Source: Oscillospiraceae bacterium
GTDB lineage: Bacteria; Bacillota; Clostridia; Oscillospirales; Ruminococcaceae
Length of the DNA: 64,000 nucleotides
NCBI GenBank assembly: GCA_014799385.1
Contig: JAAVIC010000020.1
Coordinates: 120,085-184,084 of the forward strand
Direction: 5' to 3'
Below the pieces are notes generated by a model. That model saw only the letters and a list, made by a program, of their open reading frames with translations, searched no databases and was not told the origin of the DNA. Below are positions 60,518-62,840 of the stretch, one piece after another. Within the stretch, counting starts at the first letter, position 1; every line of letters begins with the position of its first letter. The translations under genes were made by a program, and so were the position numbers.

Positions 60518-60552
60518 AGAAAAAGCACCGAACGAGTCGGTGCTTGTGAGTT
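60518..60552 (-). terminator. terminator for AbrB-family gene
   Basis: minus strand agcaccgactcgttcggtgctttttctttc. Confidence 0.7.
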
Positions 60553-60839
60553 TAATTGTTTGCAACGGTTGAATCCGCCGGCGTCTTGTCTTTTTCTTTT
60601 AGCGACATCAGCTCAGCCAAACAACTGCTGCAGATGTTGCGATTCTTGAATACCGTCACATCGCTTGCGTTAGAACAGAAACAGCAAGCAGGCGAGTACT
60701 TCTTAAGAATGATGTGGTCGTCCTCGACATAAATCTCCAGACTATCCTTATCATTGATATCCAAGTTTCTCCTAAGCTCAATCGGAATGACAACCCTTCC
60801 AAGATGATCCACTGTTCTGACAATACCCGTAGCTTTCAT
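60552..60839 (-). CDS. AbrB/SpoVT-family regulator with C-terminal CxxC zinc ribbon
   Basis: MKATGIVRTVDHLGRVVIPIELRRNLDINDKDSLEIYVEDDHIILKKY; CCFC..CSSC. Confidence 0.85.
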   Translation of the reverse strand: MKATGIVRTVDHLGRVVIPIELRRNLDINDKDSLEIYVEDDHIILKKYSPACCFCSNASDVTVFKNRNICSSCLAELMSLKEKDKTPADSTVANN

Positions 60840-61020
60840 AAAAAAACACCTCCATACAAACTTCGACAAACAAATTAACAATTCTTTGCTCTTTTCTATA
60901 TTATACCACAATATGTCAAATTTGTCAATATTTTTTATTCTCATCTTTGCGGGTTTGTGAGATTTATCACAAATTTTTACAAAAACTTCCTTAAATAGGA
61001 TTCGTTGGTAGGTGAATTTA

Positions 61021-62123: not shown

Positions 62124-62381
62124 ATGGGTAAATTGGATATATTTGGAAACCAAGCAAAATCACCGAACCGCGCATTTGCGGCGCGATTGGACGAGGTTTG
62201 CGGCAGTCTGCGCGCGATCCGCGCGAGCTTCAACATCGTCACCGACCCCGCCGCGATAGACGCGCTTATCTACCGCGAAAACGCGATAATGTGCGAATTT
62301 GCTGCGCTTCTCCATGAGGCAAAATCGAAAAACATCAGGCTTGAAATTTACGAACGCGAAAATAATTTCCGAAGATTCTGA
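62124..62381 (+). CDS. small hypothetical protein
   Basis: 85 aa; immediately downstream of spmB. Confidence 0.5.
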   Translation: MGKLDIFGNQAKSPNRAFAARLDEVCGSLRAIRASFNIVTDPAAIDALIYRENAIMCEFAALLHEAKSKNIRLEIYERENNFRRF

Positions 62382-62455
62382 ATATATTTCGGAAATCCGC
62401 GCAAAATATGTTTGCGGCAGAAAGAACCGCAATAGTTTACAGGAGGAATTTGAAA

Positions 62456-62539
62456 ATGTCTAATCAGAATAACCAGAACCAGCAGAATCAGCAGAACGAG
62501 AGCCAGCAGAGCGAGCAGAACAAGCAGAACAAGCGCTGA
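62456..62539 (+). CDS. 27-aa Gln/Asn-rich microprotein MSNQNNQNQQNQQNESQQSEQNKQNKR
   Basis: consensus-like SD AGGAGG upstream of ATG, stop TGA, followed by a GC-rich terminator-like hairpin; absent from the supplied ORF track. Confidence 0.6.
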   Translation: MSNQNNQNQQNQQNESQQSEQNKQNKR

Positions 62540-62596
62540 GTCTTAGCCGGGCGAAGAAAATCTTCCCCGGCTTTACATATTTTTTTCAAAAACCCC

Positions 62597-62625
62597 TTGA
62601 CAAATTTCGAGAAGTGTGGTATAAT
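62597..62625 (+). promoter_or_regulatory. SigA-like promoter TTGACA-17-TATAAT upstream of tRNA-Ser
   Basis: hexamers with 17-nt spacer. Confidence 0.75.
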
Positions 62626-62748
62626 AATAAAGTCGACTGGTTGTGTTGAGTGCAAGTAAGACGAGCTATGATGATTAAGGTCTTGGACGGCGTTAGTCTG
62701 AGCATGACAGGTGACAGATACCAATTTAATACCAAAAGTATGACTAAT

Positions 62749-62840
62749 GGAAAGATGGCTGAGTTGGTCTAAAGCGCACGATTGGAAATCGTGTAACGGC
62801 TAATACCCGTTCAAGGGTTCGAATCCCTTTCTTTCCGCCA
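62749..62840 (+). tRNA. tRNA-Ser (anticodon GGA), CCA encoded
   Basis: GGAAAGA/TCTTTCC acceptor, CACGA-TTGGAAA-TCGTG anticodon arm, long variable arm, GCCA end. Confidence 0.95.

Follow-up and report, generated by a model that had tools for sequence, protein, structure and literature searches.

A conserved 27-aa reading frame downstream of spmA-spmB

Downstream of spmA-spmB in the 64,000-nt stretch of Oscillospiraceae DNA analysed here (the window), a very small Gln/Asn-rich reading frame is accompanied by signals of its own, which raises the question of whether it is a gene and what its product might do. The frame runs for 27 codons from ATG to TGA (Table 1), and 18 of its 27 residues are Gln or Asn; the peptide is polar and mildly basic, with a net charge of +1. 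Among the 413 ATG-started ORFs of 20–60 aa in the window, it is the only stand-alone ORF with at least 40% Q+N, the other such entry being this frame started at an ATG further upstream. Only one other ORF of the set has AGGAGG in place. An in-frame extension to 43 aa is possible from ATG 62408; this codon falls within the -10 element of the promoter described below, so that the downstream ATG is the likely start. The hairpin AGCCGGGCGAAGAAAATCTTCCCCGGCT and a T-rich tract follow the CDS; the segment 62540-62600 folds with -19.4 kcal/mol, none of 200 shuffles being equally stable, and many congeners carry a comparable GC-rich hairpin with TTTACATATTTTT at this place. The strong ribosome-binding site and terminator-like hairpin that a preliminary description of this DNA had assigned to a microprotein are thus borne out. 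Together with its stop codon, the CDS measures 84 nt, below the Prodigal minimum gene length of 90 nt, which would explain why it is unlisted, and standard gene finders likely skip proteins of this size. Between spmB and the ORF lies a DUF2508-like gene (62125-62381; 16.6 bits, below the Pfam cut-off of 22.5).

Table 1 Features of the microprotein gene in the window
Feature	Position	Strand	Basis
Putative forespore-type (sigma-F/sigma-G) promoter: GAATA (62380-62384), 14 nt, GCGCAAAATA (62399-62408)	62380..62408	+	Shared blocks, fixed spacing
Small 5' transcript hairpin TTGCGG-N9-CCGCAA, at about the predicted transcription start	62412..62432	+	TGCGG invariant
Shine-Dalgarno AGGAGG	62441..62446	+	Sequence; AGGAGG or AGGAG in orthologues
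Microprotein CDS, 27-aa Gln/Asn-rich MSNQNNQNQQNQQNESQQSEQNKQNKR	62456..62539	+	Frame, both ends and composition kept in 28 congeners
Hairpin (62545-62572) and T-rich tract, intrinsic-terminator-like	62545..62586	+	Fold z = -4.2

When 43 congeneric genomes were searched at the protein level, one contained an identical peptide and four others gave weaker matches; reading the loci around spmB across the genus revealed many more orthologues, which share the same ends throughout and almost without exception carry AGGAGG. The exact pattern M-x-N-Q-N-[N/K]-Q matched in 28 of the 43 genomes, including 21 of the 27 good ones, with a second match in G040, while the reversed control pattern gave zero matches; the strict pattern is missing in 15 congeners, some of them near-complete (G016, 100%; G031, 98%). 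The 28 orthologues (27 distinct CDS) are 26–44 aa long, and their lengths change in-frame only. Their pooled composition is 40% Q, 40% N, 8% S, 5% K, 4% R and 2% E, no hydrophobic residue occurs after Met1, and the C-terminal residue is Arg in all 28, encoded by CGC or AGA. Over the fixed N-terminal codons taken together, almost every substitution is synonymous: Ser2, Asn3, Gln4, Asn5 and Gln7 vary in no other way, and position 6 holds either Asn or Lys. The middle region varies freely in length and order, and codon use is extreme (CAG 327, CAA 4). The search of related genomes beside spmAB, proposed earlier as a check, recovered the peptide, and its reading frame is conserved in 28 of 43 congeners. 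Judged by these conserved features, the window ORF is a real, overlooked protein-coding gene and not a chance frame.

A promoter shared with SASP and sigG genes

Each of the 28 orthologues is preceded by GHATA-N14-GNNNANAATA, its spacing fixed and its spacer poorly conserved. Dinucleotide shuffling gives 0.03 expected matches in the 23 distinct upstream regions, the motif having been derived from these same loci, so that the match count there is no independent test. In the window, the -35 block and the stop codon of the preceding DUF2508-like gene overlap, and the promoter is equally readable as GAATA-N17-CAAAATA. This fits 11 of the 12 positions of the Bacillus sigma-G consensus, gHATR/CATWHTA, the one difference lying in the -10 block; scored by this consensus alone, the orthologues of G032, G008 and G015 do not rise above shuffles. 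In C. difficile, the sites of sigma-F and sigma-G resemble each other, those of sigma-F being marked by a G ahead of the -10 block (PMC3789822). Because such a G is fixed in the orthologue promoters, we do not choose between the two factors, and we read the conserved promoter as forespore (sigma-F/sigma-G) type. A sigma-E reading (GAATATT) was dropped, because GHATA is constant whereas the two final bases of that motif are not. Downstream of the promoter, TGCGG is kept in 28 of 28 orthologues and opens a small 5' hairpin, whose stem is predicted in most leaders.

Independent support for the forespore reading comes from other genes carrying the same pattern. An alpha/beta-type SASP gene is present once per genome in 41 of the 43 congeners, and TAATA-N14-GNNNANAATA precedes it at 28 of 30 congeneric loci, with blocks and spacing as in the microprotein promoter. 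In the window's genome, these blocks and their spacing also precede sigG (SigG, NCBIfam, 417.7 bits) and a DacF-like carboxypeptidase gene (Peptidase_S11/PBP5_C); in C. difficile, sspA, sspB and dacF belong to the sigma-G genes (PMC3789822). Genome-wide, the pattern occurs 25 times against 21 for its reverse, which is near background; it stands 39-68 nt ahead of a Shine-Dalgarno-bearing ORF at the microprotein, sigG, DacF-like, DUF378 and MazF-like genes, the remaining matches lying inside long frames or at a greater distance from a start. The motif may represent a forespore promoter for the genus, usable to find other unlisted forespore genes. The DUF378 and MazF-like genes with this pattern are at L203 and L200, and a looser match, GAATA-N14-TCCAATAATG, is found at spoIIR, which the window contains. 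The SASP of the genus (L155-L184), about 58 aa long, carries MQAANEVGV where C. difficile SASPs carry the EIA GPR site, and its leader forms a long hairpin, GCAAAGG...CCTTTGC.

A candidate small protein of the spore core

Our preferred reading, to which we give a probability of about two in three (0.68), is that the microprotein is a forespore-made, disordered small spore protein and a SASP-like component of the core. Its promoter of forespore type, its minute size, a composition that is polar and slightly basic, and the free variation of its middle all point to a bulk component of the spore core. It is probably a small protein, new among those packaged into spores, and the best explanation is that it would work like a minor or gamma-type SASP while sharing no family sequence or GPR site with them. 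The gene, the conserved frame and the promoter common to SASP and sigG are read from the sequence, and from them we infer forespore expression, core location and a storage or protectant role. In detail, RNA polymerase with sigma-G (and/or sigma-F) would transcribe the gene from GAATA-N17-CAAAATA in sporulation, yielding a short transcript with a small 5' hairpin, a perfect Shine-Dalgarno sequence and its own hairpin terminator at the end, and the 27-aa polar peptide is predicted to accumulate within the developing spore. There it might be a nitrogen-rich filler or reserve used on germination, and/or a dry-state protectant; we propose this storage or protectant role in the core tentatively.

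The window microprotein matched nothing in Pfam or NCBIfam at E values up to 1, and three related peptides gave no Pfam match. The GPR cleavage site (T/S)E(F/I/L)A is absent from it, and the SASP domain PF00269 does not match it, the only PF00269 match of the genome being another gene. A literature text search for the peptide string was without match, and one for Q/N-rich endospore small proteins returned nothing relevant. The gamma-type SASP (SspE) of Bacilli is likewise a small, disordered, Gln/Asn-rich forespore product, the forespore origin being predicted in the case of the microprotein. SspE is longer and contains GPR-cleaved repeats, whereas the microprotein has neither a GPR-like site nor a family match and thus does not belong to the gamma-type family. 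Gamma-type SASP has been hypothesised to be an amino-acid reservoir (PMC8452069), and is reported to be absent from clostridia (PMC3533761). The minor SASPs (SspH, SspI, SspK to SspP, and Tlp) are also very small, forespore-expressed spore-core proteins, as the microprotein would be, but it matches none of their families in Pfam or NCBIfam. The alpha/beta-type SASP (PF00269) of the same genomes shares the promoter blocks, spacing, 5' hairpin and strong Shine-Dalgarno sequence with the microprotein, and differs from it in sequence, in binding DNA and in length (about 58-65 aa here). Clostridia are reported to be without gamma-type and most minor SASPs (PMC3533761, PMC8452069); the microprotein is a promoter-supported candidate component of the spore core in most species of a gut spore-former genus.

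A forespore-made microprotein might instead have a specific job, such as binding RNA or protein, forming a gel or affecting germination, and not act as a SASP-like store or protectant. The conserved N-terminus MSNQN[NK]Q and the C-terminal Arg suggest more than bulk composition, and a precedent is GerG (CD0311) of Clostridioides difficile, a low-complexity, Asn-rich, gel-forming spore protein that affects germination (PMC5241399). GerG shows that Asn-rich spore proteins can have other roles, so a non-storage role is conceivable; it is larger than the microprotein, contains GMPNNMSNNMNSNM repeats and occurs in C. difficile only. Against a specific job, the Asn-rich repeats of GerG are dispensable for its function (PMC5241399), and the microprotein has a middle free in length and order, no hydrophobic residue and no fold-forming segment. 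We regard a specific job as rather unlikely.

Gene neighbourhood and other readings

The microprotein gene lies near spmAB in most congeners. In G020 and G021 (L041, L082), spmAB is not within the ORFs read around the gene and the same promoter is kept, and G024, G026 and G016 have spmB but no microprotein gene beside it. By SASP coordinates and peptide, L041, L082 and L097 are congeners G020, G021 and G022, and were not counted as independent. Because the gene stands elsewhere in several congeners with its own promoter, and spmB occurs without it, the linkage to spmAB is, on present loci, incidental. The spore role that had first been suggested from the position next to spmA-spmB is supported, through the conserved promoter common to SASP, sigG and DacF-like genes, whereas the argument from position is weak.

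The same loci bear on the reading that the gene encodes a vegetative or general microprotein, expressed from a sigma-A promoter or by co-transcription with spmA-spmB-DUF2508, its likeness to sigma-G genes being fortuitous. Closeness to spmAB would fit, as would a -10 block readable as TAAAAT in some orthologues; however, the -35 block is GHATA and not TTGACA, the adjoining tRNA-Ser having a plain TTGACA/TATAAT promoter, and the microprotein promoter travels with its gene away from spmAB and recurs with identical blocks upstream of SASP and sigG. We consider this reading improbable. A run of Gln/Asn codons with a terminator-like hairpin directly 3' could also suggest an attenuator leader peptide controlling a downstream gene, which would require a promoterless regulated gene; what follows is a tRNA-Ser with its own TTGACA-N17-TATAAT promoter (62597-62625), as in many congeners. 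In addition, the downstream content differs among congeners (e.g. L009, L023, L106), the gene occurs in other neighbourhoods, and no alternative antiterminator fold was seen, albeit without a systematic search, so that we reject this very improbable reading. A chance ORF or an untranslated DNA triplet repeat, to which the slippage-prone CAG/AAC triplets and extreme codon use might point, is rejected as equally improbable, since the ends, frame, Shine-Dalgarno sequence and promoter are kept in 28 species, even at other loci.

Several further features flank the gene. In the window, the tRNA-Ser promoter lies about 120 nt from the tRNA (62749), while in other congeners the tRNA is close behind it; the intervening segment (62626-62749) contains an apparent protein-gene remnant (MMIKVLDGVSLSMTGDRY...), and congener G027 has an intact 113-aa ORF at this spot (L280 2799-3140, minus strand). 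Divergent from spmA, a short AbrB-type regulator (60552-60866, minus strand) resembles the N-terminal part of SpoVT (TIGR02851, 63 bits, well below cut-off). An Rfam search of 60-64 kb of the window gave no credible match besides the tRNA.

Q/N-rich peptides outside the genus

A profile search of 199 family genomes found members in this genus only, true members scoring weak E-values (about 1e-3), so that absence of the microprotein from other genera is not established by it. Scanning the genomes of 84,980 species revealed short peptides rich in Q and N elsewhere in the Clostridia, and almost every one of them has Lys or Arg as its last residue. Q/N-only peptides at L069 and L096 are preceded by GAATA-N18/17-CATACTA, and those at L094 and L101 by GTATA-N18-CATAATA; all four promoters score 12 of 12 matches to gHATR-N17/18-CATWHTA, which 0 of 35 control genes attain. 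A convincing promoter is absent upstream of the Q/N peptides L099, L102, L112 and L078, and an order-wide scan added L250 (65 aa, 11 of 12 promoter matches), L261 and L266. By these matches, some but not all lineages of other Clostridia have a textbook sigma-G promoter before their Q/N-only peptides, and these peptides may be either homologous or convergent. It is possible, though doubtful, that gut Clostridia without gamma-type SASPs make an analogue in the form of forespore-controlled, Gln/Asn-only peptides of 26-44 residues, serving as a nitrogen store or dry-state filler in the spore core and possibly of more than one origin; the Q/N peptides of other genera are somewhat longer than this.

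Lachnospiraceae proteins beginning with MDNQNNQN... (L040, L057, L065, L070, L071, L076, L087, L092, L103 and L113) are ones that we take to be FtsH-like, so that N/Q-richness at the N-terminus is by itself no diagnostic feature. Alphaproteobacterial MAGs (L042, L047, L052) encode mutually similar, Gln/Asn-rich MTNQNNQ... peptides of 54-60 aa with a GGAGG ribosome-binding site, which are probably unrelated to the microprotein family of the genus.
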